Origin: an uncultured Deferribacteraceae bacterium
GTDB lineage: Bacteria; Chrysiogenota; Deferribacteres; Deferribacterales; Mucispirillaceae
Assembly: GCA_947041165.1 (NCBI GenBank)
Contig: CAMRCY010000012.1
Location: 1-54,134 of the forward strand
Direction: 5' to 3'
DNA length: 54,134 nt
In this document: one piece after another, positions 13,397 to 54,134 of the stretch
Layout: each line of letters starts with the position of its first letter
Numbering within the stretch: the first letter of the stretch is position 1
Position numbers and translations under genes: made by a program
The notes under the pieces: generated by a model
Told to the model about the DNA's origin: nothing
Databases searched by the model: none
Seen by the model: only the letters and a program-made list of their open reading frames with translations

Positions 13397-16300
13397 TTAT
13401 ACTTGCTCTTTACTCTCATTTTTCGCCTTTAATTCTTCTCTTTCAACATCTGCTAACGTTCTTTTCTCTTCTGTCATTTCGTATGCTTCTAATATATCGC
13501 CAGGTCTGATATCTTGATAATTCTCTAAAGATATACCACACTCATATCCTGCAACAACTTCTTTAACATCATCTGTAAATCTTCTTAATGTTCCGATTTT
13601 ACCTTCATATACAACAATTAAATCTCTAACAATTCGTATAAGTGAGCTTCTTGAAACTTTCCCCTCTAATACAAATGATCCTGCAATCTTACCGATTTTC
13701 GGAACTGAGAATAATTGTCTAACTTCTATTTTACCAGATACAACTTCTTTAATATCAGGATTTAATAATCCTTCTAATGCTGCTTTAATATCATCAATCG
13801 CTTGATAGATTACAGAGTATAGTTCAATCGATACTTTCTCTTTATCTGCTAACCCTTTAGCATTATTATCTGGTCTAACATTAAATCCGATAACAATAGC
13901 GTTTGATGCTGCTGCTAGAGAAATATCTGATTCTGTAATTCCACCTATTCCATCATGAATAATATTCACTCTAACTTCTAGGTTAGATAGTTTAAGTAAT
14001 GATGATGATAATGCTTCTACAGAACCTTGTGCATCTGCTTTTAATATAATATTAAGGTCTTTTAATTCACCCGTTTTCGCTTTTGAGAATAATTCCGCTA
14101 ACGTTAATTTACCAGTTTTAGATTGAAGATTTTCTTTAATCTGAGAGTTTCTTAATTCAGATATCTGTTTAGCTGTTTTCTCATCAACTGATAAAAATCT
14201 TTCTCCTGCTTGAGGAACTTCACTAAATCCTAAAATTTCGCATGGTACTGAAACTGATGCCTCTTTTAACTGAACACCTTTAAAGTTGAACATCGCTCTA
14301 ACTTTACCAAACTGTGTTCCAGATATAAACGTGTCACCTTTTCTTAATGTACCGTTTTTAATTAGAACAGTTGCAACTGGGCCTTTCTGCTTATCAAGTC
14401 TTGACTCAATAACAACTCCATCTGCCATCCTGTTTGGATTACCTTTAAGATCTAATACCTCTGCCTCTAATAAAACTCTCTCTAATAGTTCACTTATTCC
14501 AACACGCTTTTTAGCTGATATCTCTTGGAATTGATGTTCTCCACCCCACTCCTCTGAGATAATACCATGTTCTGATAACTGTTGACGAACTTTATCAATA
14601 TTTGCGCCTTCTTTATCTATCTTGTTGATCGCAACAACGATACGAACACCCGCTGCTTTTGCATGATCTATCGCTTCTTTAGTTTGTGGTTTAACTCCAT
14701 CATCTGCTGCTACAACCAATATAACAATATCTGTAAGCAAAGCTCCCCTTGCTCTTAATGTTGTAAACGCTTCATGTCCTGGAGTATCTAAGAATGTGAT
14801 CTTACCTGATGATGACTCAACTTCATATGCACCTATATGCTGAGTTATTCCACCCGCTTCACTATCAACAACCGATGTTGAACGAATAGCATCAAGTAAT
14901 GATGTCTTACCGTGATCGACGTGTCCCATAACTGTAACAATCGGTGGACGTTTAGCTAAATCACTAGGCTCATCTATCTCAACTGGAAGAAGATCCTCTT
15001 CTGTTAATATAGTGATATTCACATTTATATCGTACTCTATAGCTAATAATTGTGCCGTGTCTGCATCAATCGCTTGATTAACACTCGCAATTATACCCAT
15101 ATTAAATAACTTCTTCACCAATTCAGTAACTTTAACACCGATCATCGCACTGAAATCTGATAAGACTATTCTCTCACCTATTGAAACCTCAGTTGGTCTG
15201 ATAAATAAGTTAGGCTGAACTGGACCTTTTCTTCTAGGTCTTCTATCATTTCTTGATCTGTAATTACTACGACCATTGTTTGTTCTCTGTCTTTTGAAAT
15301 CACTATCAAAACTTGCTAAATCAGAGATATCAATAGTTGGAGCTACTCCACTTTCTACCTCTTTCTCGATATTAAGTTCTTCTATACCCTCTTGAATTGC
15401 ATTAGTCCAGTTTTTACTTTTCTTAGCATCCTTTTTAGCCTTAATACGTTTTGCATCTATATCTTTCTGTGTTTCTTCAATCTTCTTCTTAACTACCTTA
15501 CGACGTTCTTCTTCCGACATTAATCCAGGTGTTTCAATCTTGCCTTTCTGTGGACCTGTTGATGATCTATATCCAGGATTATTTCCATCTGCTGGTCTAT
15601 TGTTACTACCATATCTGTTGTAACCGCCACCTGCACCATCTTGAGAGTATGGTCTGCTACCACCTGCTCCTGCTCTATTATCTGGTCTGCCATCTCTATT
15701 ATAACCACCACCTGTACTACTAGTGTTGTTATACGGAGGTCTGCTACCTGTATTGTTATTATAATTATTATTGTATGGCGGTCTACTACCTGTATTATTG
15801 TTATTGTAGTTACTGCCACCTGTACTGTTGTAGTTACTGCCACCGGTACTGTTGTATGGTGGACGACTGCCTGAACTATTATTGTAATTGCTAGTGCCTG
15901 ACGTATTATACGGAGGTCTACTGCCTGTAGAACTTGTGTTATTTGTGTATGTTCTACTGTTGCTATTAGTAGTATTCGTATATGTTCTAGCTGTACCGTT
16001 ATTGTTGAAAGCTCTACTACCATCACTATTAAGTGGTGTGTTAAAATCTTTTGTTCTTGGTGTTGGAGCTCTAACTCCTGTTGAAGTTGCTGTTCCAGTT
16101 GTTCCTGTTGGAGTTGCTGTTCCAGTTGGAGTTGCTGTTCCAGTTGTACCAGTTGGCGTTACCGTTCCAGTTGTACCAGTTGGCGTTGCTGTTCCAGTTG
16201 TACCTGTTTGCGTTGCTGTAGCTGTTGCTTCAGTTGGAGTTGCTGTACCCGTTTGCGTTGCTGTTCCAGTTGTTCCAGTTGGTGTTGCTGTAGCTGTTGC

Positions 16301-16933
16301 TTCAGTCCGATCTGCTATTGTGCCAGTTGGAGTTGGAGTTGCTGTAGCTGTTGCTGTTGTGCCAGTTGGAGTTGCTGTTCCAGTTATTCCTGTTGGAGTT
16401 GCTGTAGCTGTTGCTTCAGTTGTCCCAGTGGTAACTGCTTTATCTATATTAACTACTTCTGCATTGCTACTATTTGCATCAATGCCTTTAGAAGCCGTTG
16501 TTGTATCAGTTAATTGAACGCTCTCTTGATTAACCATATTATCAGTTGCTTTTGCAGAGCTTACAGTATTCGCTTTCGTCTGCTCTCTTCCTTCATCAAC
16601 CATTTTAATACGTTTATCTAGTTCAGCTTTCTTTCTTAAAAGATCTTCTTTACTGATCATGCTTTTAGCAACACTTGGAGTACTTTTGCCTAAAACAACT
16701 TCTTTTATTTTTACGCCACTTTTATGACGTTCCATAGCTTTTTTTAACATCTCTTGTCGTTTATCAAGAGAGGTTTTCTGTTGAGATTTGTCATTTATAA
16801 GCGATAAATCATTATCTGATACCGTATCATCTGATGATGAAACCGATACTCCTACTCCATTTAACTTCTTTATCATCTCTTCTGGATCAATACCAACATT
16901 TTTTGCAGCTTCTGAAACCTTATATACAGCCAT
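13397..16933 (-). CDS. infB: translation initiation factor IF-2 with expanded low-complexity linker
   Basis: The 1178-residue protein is longer than typical IF-2 (about 700-900). Residues 1-50 form an IF2-N domain. The G domain begins near residue 660 with GHVDHGKT (G1), GGITQHIG (G2), DTPGHEAF (G3), NKID (G4) and SAKK (G5). Domains II, III and IV follow to the C terminus. Between them lies a long linker: residues about 165-290 are a Thr/Ala/Pro/Gly repeat (units like TGTATP), and residues about 340-460 an Asn/Tyr/Gly/Pro repeat (units like SRPPYN). A charged helix and a second IF2-N region (about 580-640) come next. The enzyme places initiator tRNA on the 30S subunit. It follows ylxR by 45 bp in the nusA operon. 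Confidence 0.97.
15560..15945 (-). repeat. SRPPYN/SNYN coding repeat within infB
   Basis: Several near-identical units containing GSRPPYN and GGSNYN (Asn-, Gly- and Tyr-rich) follow one another in frame in the IF-2 linker. The nucleotide units share a GGTGGACGACTGCC-like or GGAGGTCTGCTACC-like core on the plus strand. Confidence 0.8.
16070..16435 (-). repeat. Thr-Ala-Pro-Gly (TGTATP) coding repeat within infB
   Basis: About 120 residues made almost entirely of Thr, Ala, Gly and Pro in units such as TGTATP and TEATATATQ. At the DNA level it is a GTTGCTGTTCCAGTT-like tandem array on the plus strand. That also creates a long valine-rich open frame on the opposite strand, which is a by-product. 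Confidence 0.85.
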
Positions 16934-20649: not shown

Positions 20650-21933
20650 ATGAAACAGAAATTTGAAACGTTAGCGATACACTCAGGACAAACAGTGAAT
20701 CAAAATACCATGGCTAGAGGAATTGAGATCTGTCGTTCAACGGCATTTTTATTTAGAAGCCACGAACATGCGAAAAATCTTTTTGGACTTAAAGAACTTG
20801 GAAACATTTATTCAAGACTTACAAACCCAACTAACGCAGTATTAGAAGAACGTATCACAGCTTTAGAGGGTGGTGCTGCATCAGTTGTTGTAGCTTCAGG
20901 AACATCTGCTATACATTACACAGTTATTAATATCGCTGAAATGGGTGATGAAATCGTAGCATCTGATAGATTGTACGGTGGAACATATACAATGTTTAGT
21001 GCGATCCTACCTCAATTTGGTATAACTACAAAATTTGCAGATATCAATAAACCTGAAACTTTTGAAAAACAGATCAATGAAAAAACTAGAATGATCTATC
21101 TAGAGTCGATCGGTAATCCAACATTAGATGTTGCTGATATTAAACTTTTTGCAGATATGGCTCATAAACATAATCTACCACTTGTTGTTGATGCAACTTT
21201 TTCAACTCCTTACTTAATGCGTGCTATTGAACATGGTGCTGATATCGTTATAAACTCGCTTACTAAATGGATAGGTGGACACGGATCTGCTATCGGTGGA
21301 GTTGTGACTGATGCTGGTAAATTTGATTTCTCTGATAAGAAATTTAGCCTATATAATAAACCTGATGCAAACTATCACGGAATGAAATGGGCAACAGATT
21401 TACCTGAGCCTTTAGCACCTATTAAATTTGCATTACGTCTTAGAACTGTACCACTTAGAAATCTTGGTGCTTGTTTATCTGCTGATAACTCTTGGATATT
21501 TATTCAAGGGCTTGAGTCGCTTTCTCTTAGAATGGAAAGACACTCTGAAAATGCACTTAAAGTTGCTGAGTATTTAAATAAACATGATAAAGTTGAATGG
21601 GTTAGATATCCAGGACTTGCAACTGATCCATCGAACGCACTTGCTAAAAAATATCTTAATAACGGATTTGGTGGCATGGTTGTTTTCGGTATTAAAGGTG
21701 GACTTGAGGCTGGTGGAAAATTTATAGAATTGTTAAAATTGTTCTCTCACGTTGCAAATGTTGGGGATGCTAAATCTTTAGCAATTCACCCTGCATCAAC
21801 TTCTCATTCACAGATGACAGAAGAACAACTTATAGGTGCTGGTGTTAAAACCGATCTTGTAAGATTGTCGATCGGGATTGAACATATTGATGATATCTTA
21901 GGGGATATCAAAGAAGCGTTAGATAAAATATAA
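20650..21933 (+). CDS. metY: O-acetylhomoserine sulfhydrylase
   Basis: The 427-residue protein belongs to the Cys/Met-metabolism PLP enzymes. It begins FETLAIHSGQ, has ALEGGAASVVVASGTSAIHY and binds PLP through Lys206 in NSLTKWIGGHGSAIGG. The ~425-residue length, with an insertion after the lysine (DANYHGMKWATDLPEPLAP), is that of MetY rather than the ~380-residue cystathionine enzymes. It makes homocysteine directly from O-acetylhomoserine and sulfide. It follows cysK, so the pair supplies both sulfur amino acids. A terminator closes the unit. Confidence 0.93.
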   Translation: MKQKFETLAIHSGQTVNQNTMARGIEICRSTAFLFRSHEHAKNLFGLKELGNIYSRLTNPTNAVLEERITALEGGAASVVVASGTSAIHYTVINIAEMGDEIVASDRLYGGTYTMFSAILPQFGITTKFADINKPETFEKQINEKTRMIYLESIGNPTLDVADIKLFADMAHKHNLPLVVDATFSTPYLMRAIEHGADIVINSLTKWIGGHGSAIGGVVTDAGKFDFSDKKFSLYNKPDANYHGMKWATDLPEPLAPIKFALRLRTVPLRNLGACLSADNSWIFIQGLESLSLRMERHSENALKVAEYLNKHDKVEWVRYPGLATDPSNALAKKYLNNGFGGMVVFGIKGGLEAGGKFIELLKLFSHVANVGDAKSLAIHPASTSHSQMTEEQLIGAGVKTDLVRLSIGIEHIDDILGDIKEALDKI

Positions 21934-21990
21934 TTAGAGCTATAATTTTAAAAGTAACATTTTAAGATTAATGTTTTAGAGTAAATTATG

Positions 21991-22037
21991 AGAGTAATCT
22001 GTTGATACAAAATATCGATAGGTTACTCTTTTTTTAT
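21991..22037 (+). terminator. intrinsic terminator after metY
   Basis: AGAGTAATC (from 21991) pairs with GGTTACTCT (22021-22029), leaving a loop of about 20 nt that can itself fold. Seven T follow directly. It lies about 60 bp past the metY stop. Confidence 0.85.
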
Positions 22038-22150
22038 TGATAAATACTCTGTGTGCGATTGCAAACTGTGTGCCTTAGCTGATTGCGTACGAATGTGATA
22101 AAGTTTGCTTACTCAATTGATGTTCATGCGACTTACGTGTTAGAATTTGC

Positions 22151-22850
22151 AACTTGCGTGCATGTGATTTATGTGCGTGTGATTTGCATGCGTGTGATTT
22201 GCGTGCATGTGATTAGTGTGCGTGTGATCTGCATGCGTGTGATTTGCGTGCATGTGATTTGCGTGCATGTGATTTGCGTGCATGTGATTTGCGTGCATGT
22301 GATTTATGTGCGTGTGATTTGCGTGCATGTGATTAGTGTGCGTGTGATTTGCGTGCATGTGATTTATGTGCGTGTGATTTGCGTGCATGTGATTAGTGTG
22401 CGTGTGATTTGTGTGCATGTGATTAGCGTGCATGTGATCTGTGTGCGTGTGATTAGCGTGCATGTGATTAGTGTGCGTGTGATCTGCATGCGTGTGATTA
22501 GCGTGCATGTGATTTATGTGCGTGTGATTAGCGTGCGTGTGATTAGTGTGCGTGTGATTTATGTGCGTGTGATTTATGTGCGTGTGATTTGCGTGCGTGT
22601 GATTTGCGTGCGTGTGATTTGAGTGCGTGTGATTTATGTGCGTGTGATTTATGTGCGTGAGATTTATGTGCGTGTGATTAGCGTGCATGTGATTTGCATG
22701 CGTGTGATTAGTGTGCGTGTGATTAGTGTGCGTGTGATTTATGTGCGTGTGATTTATGTGCATGTGATCTGCGTGCATGCGATTAGCGTGCGTGTGATCT
22801 GCGTGCATGTGATTAGTGTGCGTGTGATTTGCGTGCATGTGATTTGCATG
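22151..22850. repeat. 15-bp GC-rich minisatellite, about 46 uninterrupted units
   Basis: A unit of consensus GCGTGCGTGTGATTT recurs every 15 bp for about 700 bp, with no insertion or deletion (GAT stays in register throughout). Variation is almost confined to the CpG positions (GCG to GTG or GCA, CGTGT to CATGT) and the last bases of the unit. The array is much more GC-rich than its surroundings and is mostly alternating purine-pyrimidine. Degenerate units extend to about 22040 on the left. Because the period is a multiple of three, both strands carry long open frames with 5-residue repeats. I regard these as a by-product because no ribosome site or normal start context precedes them. It is the main content of the gene-free stretch between metY and the next gene. 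Confidence 0.95.
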
Positions 22851-22908
22851 CGTATTTCAACAATCGCAACGTCAACCATAAATATTCGCAAACTTAACCT
22901 GCTCTTTA

Positions 22909-23361
22909 CTAAATATTTATGATTACAGCCGTTTCATCGCAGTTCGGATATTTTGGACATTTAAGACAATCTGTCCAGATCTTTCTTGGCAGTCCTTCTA
23001 TATCTGTTATATGAAAACCGTTATTTGTAAAAAAATCAACTCTATACGTCAACGCAAAAATAGATTTAAACTCGTAACTCTTTGCTTTCTCCAATTTATA
23101 CTCTAACAACTTTCTGCCGATCCCCTGCCCTTCATACCCTTTCTTTACTGCAAATGATCTAACCTCTGCGATATCTTCCCACATAGGATGTAACGCTATT
23201 ACACCTACTATCTCATTACTCTCATTCACATATACTGAAAATTCATACAGCTTTTCATAAATCTCACTCAAGCTAACTGCCAACATCACACCATCTGATG
23301 CATACTTATTAACTAGCTCATGGATCGCTCCTGCATCTGACACTACACAATCTTTTATCAT
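22909..23361 (-). CDS. GNAT N-acetyltransferase, probable short N-acetylglutamate synthase
   Basis: Started at the ATG at 23361, 6 nt after a GGGA ribosome site, the protein is 150 residues (an upstream GTG would overlap that site). The GNAT core is clear: EVRSFAVKKGYEGQGIGRKLL contains the acetyl-CoA pyrophosphate loop. The C-terminal LPRKIWTDCLKCPKYPNCDE, with its three Cys, is characteristic of stand-alone bacterial N-acetylglutamate synthases that replace the long ArgA in many lineages. It would acetylate glutamate for arginine biosynthesis. No other arg genes are adjacent, so a different acceptor amino acid remains possible. Confidence 0.8.
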   Translation of the reverse strand: MIKDCVVSDAGAIHELVNKYASDGVMLAVSLSEIYEKLYEFSVYVNESNEIVGVIALHPMWEDIAEVRSFAVKKGYEGQGIGRKLLEYKLEKAKSYEFKSIFALTYRVDFFTNNGFHITDIEGLPRKIWTDCLKCPKYPNCDETAVIINI

Positions 23362-23444
23362 ATCTTTTCCCACACTCAGTTATATTAAAATACAGTATCG
23401 TATATCATAATAATATTTTCAAGTAATATCTTAACTATATATAC

Positions 23445-43677: not shown

Positions 43678-44892
43678 ATGTTTATAAAAATGAGAAGCAT
43701 TTTAAACATTTTTTTAATTTTAATGATTGTTGGGTTGTTTTCAGCTTGCTCAAATGATTCGGTTATACCTCCAACTGGCGACGGTGGCACTGGTGGCGAT
43801 ACTGGTGGCGACGGCGGTGATACTGGCGGTGGTGACGGTGGTGGCGACGGCGGTGGTGATGGTGGTGATGGTGTAATTGGCGAGATTTTCAAACCGTTTA
43901 ACAATGATCTATATTTTGGAAGAACTAAGTTGACTGATGAAAATGAACTAAAAGTATACGATCTGACACTTAAAACTATGTTAGATAATTACACTACGTT
44001 AGTTGGCGATCAAGGTGCAACTTTTCCAGTTGAAAATAGTATCAAAATTGATCTTAAAGGAAACAATATAAAAGGTATTAAAAATAAAGAACAACTTAAT
44101 AAAATAGTGTCATTTCTTGAAAGTGATGAACCTAGATTATTTCATATAAGTAAAACTATCCCTATGTCGATCTCTAACATATTTCAGTGGGATAATTTGA
44201 ATAAACCGTTTGGTAAAGATAGTGATGGCAATATTACTGAGTTTTATGTTCGTATTTATGATGAATATAGTGATTATAAAAAATATTCTACAGATATGAA
44301 TAAAATGGAGATTAGAGTTAAAACAATTTTAAAATCTATGGGAGATATCTCTACTAAAACTAAACCTCAAATTGTAAACATAATTCATGAAAAACATCAT
44401 GAACAAGTTACTATCGGTTTCACAGGTGGTGTTCCTAGTTCTGATATTAGAGGTGCTTTTCTAAATCCTAACTCACAGGGACATTATGTTGTTACTGTTG
44501 ATGGACACTCTCATACGCTCCTATATCTTCTGCAACGCTTAAATACTAAAGCTATTTATATAACTGGTACGTATCAAATTGATAACCAGGATACGGGTGC
44601 TACAGAAAAACATCTTCATTCATGGAATAAAGTAGATGTTGGGGACGGTAAATGGTATAATATGGATCCTGCATCTGATGATGATTTACAAGTAGACCTA
44701 CCTACAACTGGAGCTCCTGGACCTGGTGGACCTGGATCTAAAAATTTCTTCTTAAAATCTGATGCAGATTATCAAGCGAGATATATCGGTGTAAATAAAA
44801 ATGAAACCGATCAATCTATCGGATATTTATTGCATGGAGTTTCGATACCTGCAACACCAGTAAGTAGTTTAGATCCTGTAGAGTATCAATAA
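43678..44892 (+). CDS. transglutaminase-fold lipoprotein 1, catalytic Cys lost
   Basis: The 404-residue protein starts with a lipoprotein signal (SILNIFLILMIVGLFSAC). A tether of Gly/Asp/Thr (about residues 31-65) follows, then the mature domain starting IFKPFNNDLYFGR. Compared with its two downstream paralogs, it has Val274 where they have the catalytic Cys. His314 (HSWNKVD) and Asp330 (YNMDPASDD) of the Cys-His-Asp triad remain. The nearby DGYSRS of the paralogs reads DGHSHT. It should therefore be inactive as an enzyme and may act as a binding or regulatory partner. It is the first of three tandem copies. Confidence 0.8.
   Translation: MFIKMRSILNIFLILMIVGLFSACSNDSVIPPTGDGGTGGDTGGDGGDTGGGDGGGDGGGDGGDGVIGEIFKPFNNDLYFGRTKLTDENELKVYDLTLKTMLDNYTTLVGDQGATFPVENSIKIDLKGNNIKGIKNKEQLNKIVSFLESDEPRLFHISKTIPMSISNIFQWDNLNKPFGKDSDGNITEFYVRIYDEYSDYKKYSTDMNKMEIRVKTILKSMGDISTKTKPQIVNIIHEKHHEQVTIGFTGGVPSSDIRGAFLNPNSQGHYVVTVDGHSHTLLYLLQRLNTKAIYITGTYQIDNQDTGATEKHLHSWNKVDVGDGKWYNMDPASDDDLQVDLPTTGAPGPGGPGSKNFFLKSDADYQARYIGVNKNETDQSIGYLLHGVSIPATPVSSLDPVEYQ
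43768..43878 (+). repeat. Gly/Asp coding repeat, lipoprotein 1 tether
   Basis: A run of GGTGGC/GGCGAC-type hexamers and nonamers encodes about 35 residues rich in GGD and GGT. Copy number differs from those in the two paralogs. Confidence 0.85.
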
Positions 44893-44967: not shown

Positions 44968-46161
44968 ATGTTTATTGAAAAAAGAAGTATTTTAAACATT
45001 TTAATAGTTTTGATGACAGCATGGTTGGTTTCAGCTTGTGCCGATGGATCATCTTTTGTGCCAAAGAAAGATAATGGTTCTAATGAGAATATAGATCCTG
45101 ACGGTGACACTGGCGGTGGCGATACTGGCGGTGGTGATACTGGTGGCGGTGGTGATACTGGCGGTGGCGACGGTGGAACTGGCGGTGAAGGTGGAGATGT
45201 TGTAATTGGCGAGATTTTCAAACCATTCAGCAATGATCTATATTTTGGAAGAGCTCACTTAAACGCTCATGAACAGAAAACATACGATCTAGTATTAAAA
45301 AACACGATGACTAATTACACAGAGCGACTTTCAATATATCTTGATGATGATGGATATGAAGTTGAAGGAAGAATAAAAATTGATCTTGCTAAAAACAATA
45401 TATTAAATATTAAAACTTCTGAGAACATCAATAAAATTATAGCGTTTGCTACAGATGATGAACCTAGGTTATTTCATATAAGAACTTCTGCTAGATCTTC
45501 TGCAACGGGAGATGCGACTGTTTCGTATCTTAAAGACACTAACGGAAATATCAAAGAGTTTTATATTCGTATAGGTATGAGATATGAAAAATATTCAACA
45601 TACGCAGATGAAATGAATACGATGGAGATTAGAGTTAATAATATTCTAACAGCTGTTGGTGATACATCTAAAATGAGTAAAGCTCAAGTCGTTAGAAAAC
45701 TTCAAGAAGAATATCTTGCAACTGTGTCGTATGGACAGAAAGGTTCTCCCTCAGATATGCGTGGATCGTTCTTAAAACCTGCTGATACTTACTACGGCTA
45801 CTATAAAGTTTTATGCGAAGGTTATTCTCGTTCAATGTTGTATCTTCTTCAACGTTTAGGATTTAAAGCTATCTATATTAATGGCTCAGCTTTTGATGGT
45901 GAAAAAAAACTTCTACACGCTTGGAACAAAGTAGATATTGATGGGAAGTGGTATAATCTTGATTCTACTTGGGATGATGATAAACCTGGAAATTCTACTG
46001 CTTCATTTAAATATGATTTCTTGAAATCAGATGTAGATTTTTCAACAAAACATCCAGAACCTCAAAAAGATCAAGATGGAGCAAACACTGGATACTTGAT
46101 GTTTGATGTTAATCTTCCTGCTTCAGCTTCTAAAAGTTTAACTCCTGCAGAATATGAATAG
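44968..46161 (+). CDS. transglutaminase-fold lipoprotein 2
   Basis: The 397-residue paralog starts at MFIEKRSILNILIVLMTAWL and has the lipobox LVSAC. A Gly/Asp/Thr tether (about 43-75) comes next, followed by the mature domain beginning IFKPFSNDLYFGR. The catalytic triad is intact: Cys283 (LCEGYSRSM), His317 (LHAWNKVD) and Asp332 (YNLDSTWDD). This is the transglutaminase-like cysteine protease/peptidase pattern also seen in bacterial secreted proteins that cleave or cross-link peptides. It would sit on the outer face of a membrane. The substrate is unknown. Confidence 0.85.
   Translation: MFIEKRSILNILIVLMTAWLVSACADGSSFVPKKDNGSNENIDPDGDTGGGDTGGGDTGGGGDTGGGDGGTGGEGGDVVIGEIFKPFSNDLYFGRAHLNAHEQKTYDLVLKNTMTNYTERLSIYLDDDGYEVEGRIKIDLAKNNILNIKTSENINKIIAFATDDEPRLFHIRTSARSSATGDATVSYLKDTNGNIKEFYIRIGMRYEKYSTYADEMNTMEIRVNNILTAVGDTSKMSKAQVVRKLQEEYLATVSYGQKGSPSDMRGSFLKPADTYYGYYKVLCEGYSRSMLYLLQRLGFKAIYINGSAFDGEKKLLHAWNKVDIDGKWYNLDSTWDDDKPGNSTASFKYDFLKSDVDFSTKHPEPQKDQDGANTGYLMFDVNLPASASKSLTPAEYE
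45100..45203 (+). repeat. Gly/Asp coding repeat, lipoprotein 2 tether
   Basis: Units such as GGCGGTGGCGATACT (GGGDT) repeat about five times in frame, then degenerate. Confidence 0.85.
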
Positions 46162-46318: not shown

Positions 46319-47482
46319 ATGTTTATGATGAAGACAGTTATTTTTAATATATTTTTGGTGTTAGGGTTTTTAATACTCATTACCTCTTGTGCAGAGAACT
46401 CTGCTTTTATGCCTAATGGTGATAATAGCTCTAGTGAGGACGGCAGTACTGGTGGAGATGGTGGGACTGGTGGCGATGGCAGTACTGGTGGAGATACTGG
46501 AACTGGTGGAGATGGCAGTACTGGTGGCGATGGGACTATCGGTGATAACAACGCTATCTTCAAACCTGCTAACAAAGAGTTATATTTTGGAAGAGCTAAT
46601 CTAAACACTGATGAGCAAAAAGCATACGATCTTGCATTAAAAACCATGCTAGACAACTACTCATCTATTGTGACTAATGATGGAGCTGGTGGAAGAGTAA
46701 AAATTGATCTAGGCAAAAACAAAATATTAAATATAAAATATAATGAACAACTAAAGAAAATTGTATCTTTTATAGAACAAGATGAAGCTAGGTTATTTCA
46801 TATATCTAGCAATTCACCGATGGCGAACCCTAGTGGATTTGGATATACCTATAAAAAAGATGCATACGGAAATATTACAGAATTTTATATTCGTATACAT
46901 AGAACGTATTTGAGTTATGAAAAATATCGTGATGACATGAAAACTATTGAACTTAAAGTATCTGCAATAATAAAATCAATAGGCGATACATCTAAACTTA
47001 CTAAACCTCAAATAGTTAGAAAGCTTCATGAAGAGTATCTTGCAACTGTTGCTTATGGTGGTATGAATTTTAGTTCTGCAGGAAATATAACTGGATCTTT
47101 TCTAGCACCGATATCTACTGATTATTTTAAACGCTATCTTGTTATCTGCGATGGTTACTCTCGTTCAATGCTATATCTTTTACAACGCTTAGGGCTTAAA
47201 GCGATATACATTATAGGAATGACTCCTGAAGGTTTTCATGCTTGGAATAAAGTAGAACTTAACGGAGAGTGGTATAATCTTGATTCTACTTGGGACGACT
47301 CTATGACATTAAACTCTACTAGTTCAAGAAAAGAACATTTCTTAAAATCAGATGCTGACTTTTCACCGATACATCCTAAACCTCAAATAGATTCTGTTGG
47401 GAAAAAAACAGGATATTTACCTTTCGGTGTTAATCTTCCTGCCTCTGCTAATAAAAGTTTAACTCCTCAAGAATATAATTAA
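46319..47482 (+). CDS. transglutaminase-fold lipoprotein 3
   Basis: The 387-residue third copy has an AGGTAG ribosome site. Its signal peptide ends LILITSC (lipobox), and a Gly/Thr/Asp/Ser tether lies at about 39-75. The mature domain starts IFKPANKELYFGR, and the triad is intact: Cys277 (ICDGYSRSM), His307 (FHAWNKVE) and Asp322 (YNLDSTWDD). It ends SANKSLTPQEYN, like copy 2 (SASKSLTPAEYE), so the C termini are conserved too. Copies 2 and 3 look more alike than either is to copy 1. Confidence 0.85.
   Translation: MFMMKTVIFNIFLVLGFLILITSCAENSAFMPNGDNSSSEDGSTGGDGGTGGDGSTGGDTGTGGDGSTGGDGTIGDNNAIFKPANKELYFGRANLNTDEQKAYDLALKTMLDNYSSIVTNDGAGGRVKIDLGKNKILNIKYNEQLKKIVSFIEQDEARLFHISSNSPMANPSGFGYTYKKDAYGNITEFYIRIHRTYLSYEKYRDDMKTIELKVSAIIKSIGDTSKLTKPQIVRKLHEEYLATVAYGGMNFSSAGNITGSFLAPISTDYFKRYLVICDGYSRSMLYLLQRLGLKAIYIIGMTPEGFHAWNKVELNGEWYNLDSTWDDSMTLNSTSSRKEHFLKSDADFSPIHPKPQIDSVGKKTGYLPFGVNLPASANKSLTPQEYN
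46437..46545 (+). repeat. Gly/Thr/Asp coding repeat, lipoprotein 3 tether
   Basis: Units of the type GGTGGAGATGGCAGTACT (GGDGST) repeat with slight changes, about 36 residues in all. Confidence 0.85.
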
Positions 47483-53323: not shown

Positions 53324-53821
53324 ATGGTTCTAATAAAAATGAAATATGTATTAATTATTTTTTCACTAGTTTTTTCTTTCTACATGCTTAATGCATGCAC
53401 ATACGACAAACAATTAAAGGCAGCTATTGAACCCACTGTTGTTGCTAAAAATATTGTGCCTGTAAATAATATACCGATGAACCACCTTGATATAAAGGCT
53501 GAAAACTATTTAGGTCAAAAAATATCAATTACGAATTTCTCAACTGCAACGTTCACTATAACTAATATGTTTTCTGATTCTATAAGTTTTAAATACTCTC
53601 AAATAGAGAAAGTTGAACAAGTTAATAATGATAATATTAACGCTTGTAACGCTAAAGGCGTTTTTAGAGTTCTAGAACCTCTTGAGAAATGTTTTATAGA
53701 TATGATCATTGAACCAAATAGTAATATTCGTGGTACAGAAATAGTTATTGATTATAAAGTTAATAACGATGATAGAACTTATCAAGCTGTGTATCAAGTA
53801 AACGACTTTCTATTATTCTAA
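53324..53821 (+). CDS. small lipoprotein with an Ig-like domain
   Basis: The 165-residue protein has a signal peptide ending MLNAC (lipobox), so it is probably lipidated. The mature part (about 50-160) reads as beta strands with the pattern ATFTITNMFSDS, then LEPLEKCFIDMIIEPN and GTEIVIDYKV. This is like the abnormal-spindle/HYDIN Ig-like fold used by secreted bacterial proteins. The family call is tentative. Its stop codon lies inside the first unit of the 89-bp repeat. Confidence 0.65.
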   Translation: MVLIKMKYVLIIFSLVFSFYMLNACTYDKQLKAAIEPTVVAKNIVPVNNIPMNHLDIKAENYLGQKISITNFSTATFTITNMFSDSISFKYSQIEKVEQVNNDNINACNAKGVFRVLEPLEKCFIDMIIEPNSNIRGTEIVIDYKVNNDDRTYQAVYQVNDFLLF

Positions 53822-54134
53822 AATAACTAAACCGTACCCTATTCGCACTATATACAATTAATTACGATATTTAACATAACGTCGTGTATAAAGATTTATA
53901 TCTATTCTAAAATAACCAAACCGTACCCTATTCGCACTATATACAATTAATTACGATATTTAACATAACATCGTGCATAAAGATTTATATCTATTCTAAA
54001 ATAACTAAACCGTACCCTATTCACACTATATACAATTAATTACAATATTTAACTTAATGTCGTGCATAAAGATTTACACCTATTCTAAAATAACTAAACC
54101 GTACCCTATTCACACTATATACAATTAATTACAA
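53816..54134. repeat. 89-bp tandem repeat, at least 3.6 units, running off the window
   Basis: Units beginning TTCTAAAATAACTAAACC occur at 53816, 53905, 53994 and 54083, exactly 89 bp apart, differing by a few transitions. The first unit begins with the last codons and stop codon of the lipoprotein gene. No open frame, spacer or dyad of note is inside the unit. The array continues past 54134, so its full length is unknown. It fills the gene-free end of the window. Confidence 0.95.

Follow-up and report, generated by a model that had tools for sequence, protein, structure and literature searches.

VNTR loci, small tandem repeats of the kind scored in MLVA typing, are commonly used for strain typing (PMC2884548). 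Like other bacterial minisatellites, they consist of a short unit repeated head to tail in intergenic DNA, with unit variants spread by duplication and with fast turnover. Palindromic units and BIMEs (REP elements) are also intergenic repeats and often lie past the ends of genes, and CRISPR arrays are made up of regularly spaced repeats. Here we describe a 15-bp array in a window of 54,134 nucleotides, the whole stretch of DNA that was analysed (contig CAMRCY010000012.1 of assembly GCA_947041165.1, from an uncultured Deferribacteraceae bacterium, whose genome size, kinship groups and phylum suggest a gut organism placed beside Mucispirillum; genome G000 below). With minisatellites and VNTR loci the array shares the short head-to-tail unit, the intergenic position, the spread of unit variants by duplication and the fast turnover. 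It differs from a typical VNTR in its many copies (46.7), in being GC-rich within an AT-rich genome, in belonging to an unusually dense set of arrays in its genus, and in being known from a comparison between species. Unlike REP elements and BIMEs it has no dispersed family, the single match to its unit in G000 being the array itself, and arrays at separate loci have no motif in common above chance; an interspersed family of the REP/BIME type was rejected on these grounds, as no motif was clearly common, beyond the null, to 22 GC-rich arrays. Unlike a CRISPR array it has no spacers, and its units abut at 15-bp spacing. None of the titles and abstracts that were searched described repeats like these in Deferribacterota. 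In our assessment, the array is very probably a non-coding, neutral or nearly neutral minisatellite of the VNTR type in a convergent spacer, made by slippage or unequal recombination and with no sequence-specific function.

The array, its setting and its units

The initial annotation had described an indel-free, GC-rich 15-bp array in perfect register, lying past a terminator and facing a convergent gene, and both parts of this description are borne out, the first by TRF and the second by gene calls and a terminator scan (Table 1). All 46 full units could be tabulated without a break in register, and the head-to-tail unit falls within the range of roughly 10-60 bp that characterizes minisatellites and VNTR loci. 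Degenerate copies of the unit extend upstream of the core to about 22050. The GC content of the array is 0.46, as against 0.33 for the window. An artefact of assembly is an unlikely origin for the array itself: exact repeats within it run to 69 bp at most, so that ordinary short reads are able to order the units.

Table 1. Features at and around the array (window positions)
Feature	Position	Strand	Evidence and remarks
Cys/Met metabolism PLP-dependent enzyme gene, upstream convergent	20650..21933	+	Pfam PF01053, E=9.8e-131
Rho-independent terminator of the upstream gene	21990..22037	+	Terminator scan; alignment
Degenerate repeat-like left border	22050..22153	+	Part (GATTGCAAACTGTGTGCCTTAGCTGATTGCGT...) common to G000 and congener G002
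Core 15-bp minisatellite	22154..22853	+	TRF: period 15, 46.7 copies, 83% matches, 0% indels, score 861; 15 unit types among 46 full copies
GNAT acetyltransferase gene, downstream convergent	22909..23373	-	Pfam PF00583, E=1.6e-12

The upstream PLP-dependent enzyme, which is O-acetylhomoserine sulfhydrylase-like by inference, has orthologues that are 95-96% identical in three congeners (G001, G002 and G003). In the alignment the stem and T-tract of its terminator are kept in all four members of the genus, and conservation ends directly past the terminator. On the other side, orthologues of the GNAT gene adjoin the array in G001 and G002 (90-91% identical); in G003 no GNAT flank of the site turned up. 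The window also holds in-gene repeats (e.g. TGGCGGTGGTGATACTGG) within several of its open frames, at 16076-16422, 43783-43869, 45109-45198 and 46442-46544.

The consensus unit of the initial annotation, a rotation of TTGCGTGCGTGTGAT, is matched exactly by only two of the 46 units, the commonest types being TTGCGTGCATGTGAT (n=10), TTATGTGCGTGTGAT (n=9) and TAGTGTGCGTGTGAT (n=8), and variation is confined to unit positions 1, 2, 3, 4, 5, 9 and 12. A scan for higher-order structure within the array found no prominent unit lag once 12 tests were allowed for. A search of viral contigs with the array gave no match, and two distant matches (L003 and L004), found in 1.3-Mb genomes belonging to the same class, were set aside as repeats of another composition, CA-rich or otherwise.

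The variation had been called CpG-focused, and this stands insofar as 44 of the 76 departures from consensus in the 46 units fall on CpG sites (positions 4, 5 and 9). It does not stand for position 8, the C of the second CpG, which never varies, or for the non-CpG positions 1, 2 and 3, which vary in 5, 14 and 11 units, respectively. The same count of 44 is what favors the associated proposal that deamination of methylated cytosines at CpG has shaped the units, a proposal that we regard as very improbable on several grounds. At the level of unit positions, three of the four CpG positions vary as against four of the 11 others (Fisher p=0.28). The changes are asymmetric, with G9>A in 18 units whereas C8>T is absent, and the frequent T2>A transversion (14 of 46 units) is not a product of deamination. 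While the CpG observed/expected ratio is 1.82 in the array, its value of 0.82 in the remainder of the window does not amount to strong depletion. Furthermore, about 15 single changes suffice to connect the 15 unit types, so that most of the departure counts reflect copying rather than new mutation, and the copies are inherited and non-independent. A seeming rule that each unit has one CpG and no more, seen in 40 of 46 units (Fisher p=1e-6), was rejected likewise, since the test assumes independent copies and a few founder types account for the two CpGs being negatively associated.

The same site in three congeners

Repeat DNA is present at the orthologous spot in G001, G002 and G003, whose contigs end in or beside the repeat. 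Its organization is different in each: the array of G002 has a period of 52 bp, that of G001 an alternating 13/15 spacing with an 84-bp higher order, and that of G003 an irregular spacing of 11-16. Units and periods at one locus thus differ between related genomes, as is characteristic of VNTR loci, in a comparison that is between species, with one genome per species. In G001 a telomere-like (AGGTTT)n run is seen directly after the conserved terminator (L015:2868-2926), reaching the contig end.

The G000 array has no BLAST match in its congeners, and the proteins of the flanking genes are 90-96% identical among them. The arrays of G001 and G003 match each other at 73-80%, which indicates shared ancestry. 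The simplest reading is that of one ancestral array whose units have been replaced much faster than the genes have changed. The comparison with congeners thereby backs simple expansion, one of the origins entertained by the initial annotation, and it speaks against another, a sequence-specific protein-binding array, because both the unit sequence and its spacing differ among the congeners.

As a neutral minisatellite, the array would have originated from a short GT-rich seed and grown as whole units were duplicated, either by slippage during replication or by unequal recombination, and such duplication would both spread a few founder variants and keep the register. It may persist because the two 3' ends have nothing essential between them, and its turnover would be fast enough for sister species to differ in their units at the site. 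Slippage or recombination as the maker of the array, and its neutrality, are what we infer; the array, its orthologous position, the turnover of units, the excess across the genus and the scarcity in divergent spacers are shown by the data. One feature sits uneasily with a minisatellite, namely the strict absence of indels over 700 bp, which the mixed spacing of the G001 and G003 arrays does not match.

Coding, RNA and structural readings

Read in a plus frame, the array yields CDL(R/C/H)A, which resembles pentapeptide repeats, and a minus-strand frame across it is open for 232 aa. These could be the traces of a decayed or hidden gene, the more so as variation in the CDLxA frame is mostly synonymous or limited to one residue, but we hold such a gene to be exceedingly unlikely. 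The CDLxA frame contains 15 stop codons (14 TAG and one TGA), neither of the two open frames tested in the array has a match in Pfam, and the congener spacings of 13/15 or 52 bp cannot hold a frame; as the unit length is a multiple of three, open frames are expected anyway. A pentapeptide-repeat-like gene was rejected for the same reasons, as the stops and the non-triplet congener spacing leave no frame open across the relatives.

A further proposition is that the array is transcribed as a GU-rich RNA forming long hairpins, which would serve in attenuation of read-through or as a structured RNA. A plus-strand RNA of 20 units is predicted to fold at -130 kcal/mol (z=-7.6), and the array region has 19 terminator-like sites as against 2.0 in shuffles. 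However, when the 15 columns were permuted in the same manner in every unit, nine of 150 control arrays folded as well, which weakens the z-score, and the arrays of the three congeners fold no better than shuffles (z +1.3, +2.9 and +0.7). The matches in an Rfam search were all far below the gathering scores. Structure is hence not kept across relatives, and we rejected a structured RNA; the broader proposition appears highly unlikely.

The one property of the array that could hint at function is its alternation of purines and pyrimidines. The alternation reported in the initial annotation is real: it extends to 0.795 of the steps, compared with 0.50 in shuffles and 0.49 in the rest of the window, and is the highest among 110 intergenic arrays of the genus (95th percentile 0.69). 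By this sequence measure, the excess of alternation, the array would qualify as a candidate Z-DNA element. The orthologous arrays of the three congeners also alternate at 0.62-0.68, where 0.50 is expected, and such an excess in four orthologous arrays (0.62-0.80) could mean constraint rather than ancestry, against a neutral minisatellite. Alternating repeats past a convergent terminator might absorb supercoils as Z-DNA, or block collisions of transcription and replication, with the alternation conserved and not the sequence; the location of this array is of that kind. Yet the congener values are within what other arrays reach at their upper end, the longest alternating run spans only 12 bases, with the GATT part of each unit interrupting the alternation, and the common ancestry of the four arrays, which would account for their like style, is a simpler reason than function. 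We therefore consider a structural DNA element unlikely.

Tandem arrays across the genus

Tandem arrays abound in this genus, as judged from sampled stretches of 315-454 kb per genome. Their density per 100 kb is 18.5, 10.8, 16.5 and 13.0 in G000, G001, G002 and G003, compared with 3.2 in a genome from another genus with the same GC (G005) and 0.8 in one from a third genus with a GC of 0.48 (G004). With the first kilobase of each stretch excluded the values are 15.7, 8.9, 14.6 and 9.7 in the four genus members, as against 2.9 and 0.8. Counting only intergenic arrays that have about three or more copies and are 100 bp or longer, there are 16, 6, 9 and 3 in the genus, versus one in G005 and none in G004. 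In G000 arrays occupy about 24% of the bases of convergent spacers, 15% of codirectional and 3% of divergent ones, these fractions being approximate since gene context came from a simple ORF caller. The scarcity in divergent spacers is as expected if promoters are spared.

Turnover is likewise not confined to the present locus. In other orthologous spacers, with flanks that are mostly 80-93% identical, the array is usually missing or has a different unit: gain, loss or replacement at these sampled sites too. Two further GC-rich, short-unit arrays were noted in G000, one of 17 bp x17 (CTAACCGTGCCAACTGC; L033:1-297) and one of 18 bp x25 (ACCGTTGCAAACTCGCAC; L038:12397-12853); the counterpart of the latter in G003 is an AT-rich spacer that yielded no array. 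A search for a seed motif common to all arrays found AACT only slightly enriched (99 occurrences against 81 expected). One tetranucleotide microsatellite (AACT/AGTT) is seen repeatedly, in runs of 13-14 copies, in three of the four genus members (L032:1-54, L064:8138-8194, L081:9925-9977 and L090:16195-16251).

In the four genus members, 5 to 13 of the 20-21 stretches sampled have their start within an array, which suggests that tandem arrays are behind the assembly breaks in these genomes. The contig end of the window lies within an 89-bp x3.7 array (53807-54132), and nine of 20 other sampled G000 contigs start within a tandem array near position 1 (L032, L033, L034, L037, L039, L042, L043, L046 and L049).

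Simple loss of mismatch repair was rejected as an explanation for the repeat load, given that MutS and MutL were found in all four genus members. The MutS proteins of the genus (L151-L154, from G000, G001, G003 and G002, respectively) have, ahead of the conserved C-terminus, a long low-complexity stretch rich in Asn, Ser and Asp, and their open frames span 914-946 aa, as against 847-903 aa in the other two genera. MutS2 is 764 aa long in all three congeners and has no match over the cut-off in G000, which could be due to an assembly gap; G000 also bears the highest array load. We regard the Asn/Ser-rich stretch and the MutS2 miss as leads, not as explanations of the load. A lineage-specific process, such as changed repair or replication, might keep creating and replacing spacer arrays despite MutS and MutL, with selection keeping the alternation at the present locus, through all change of sequence, to buffer DNA topology between the convergent genes; this combination strikes us as distinctly improbable.

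What this analysis adds is the finding that the arrays at this spot in three congeners differ in unit and period from that of G000, in a genus loaded with tandem arrays. On its own the G000 array is an ordinary kind of locus; it is the load of minisatellites in the lineage that is unusual. Array loci of this sort could serve in strain typing. The broader point, which is testable, is that an uncultured genus related to Mucispirillum carries several-fold more tandem arrays than its relatives, and that these are replaced between species although MutS and MutL are present.
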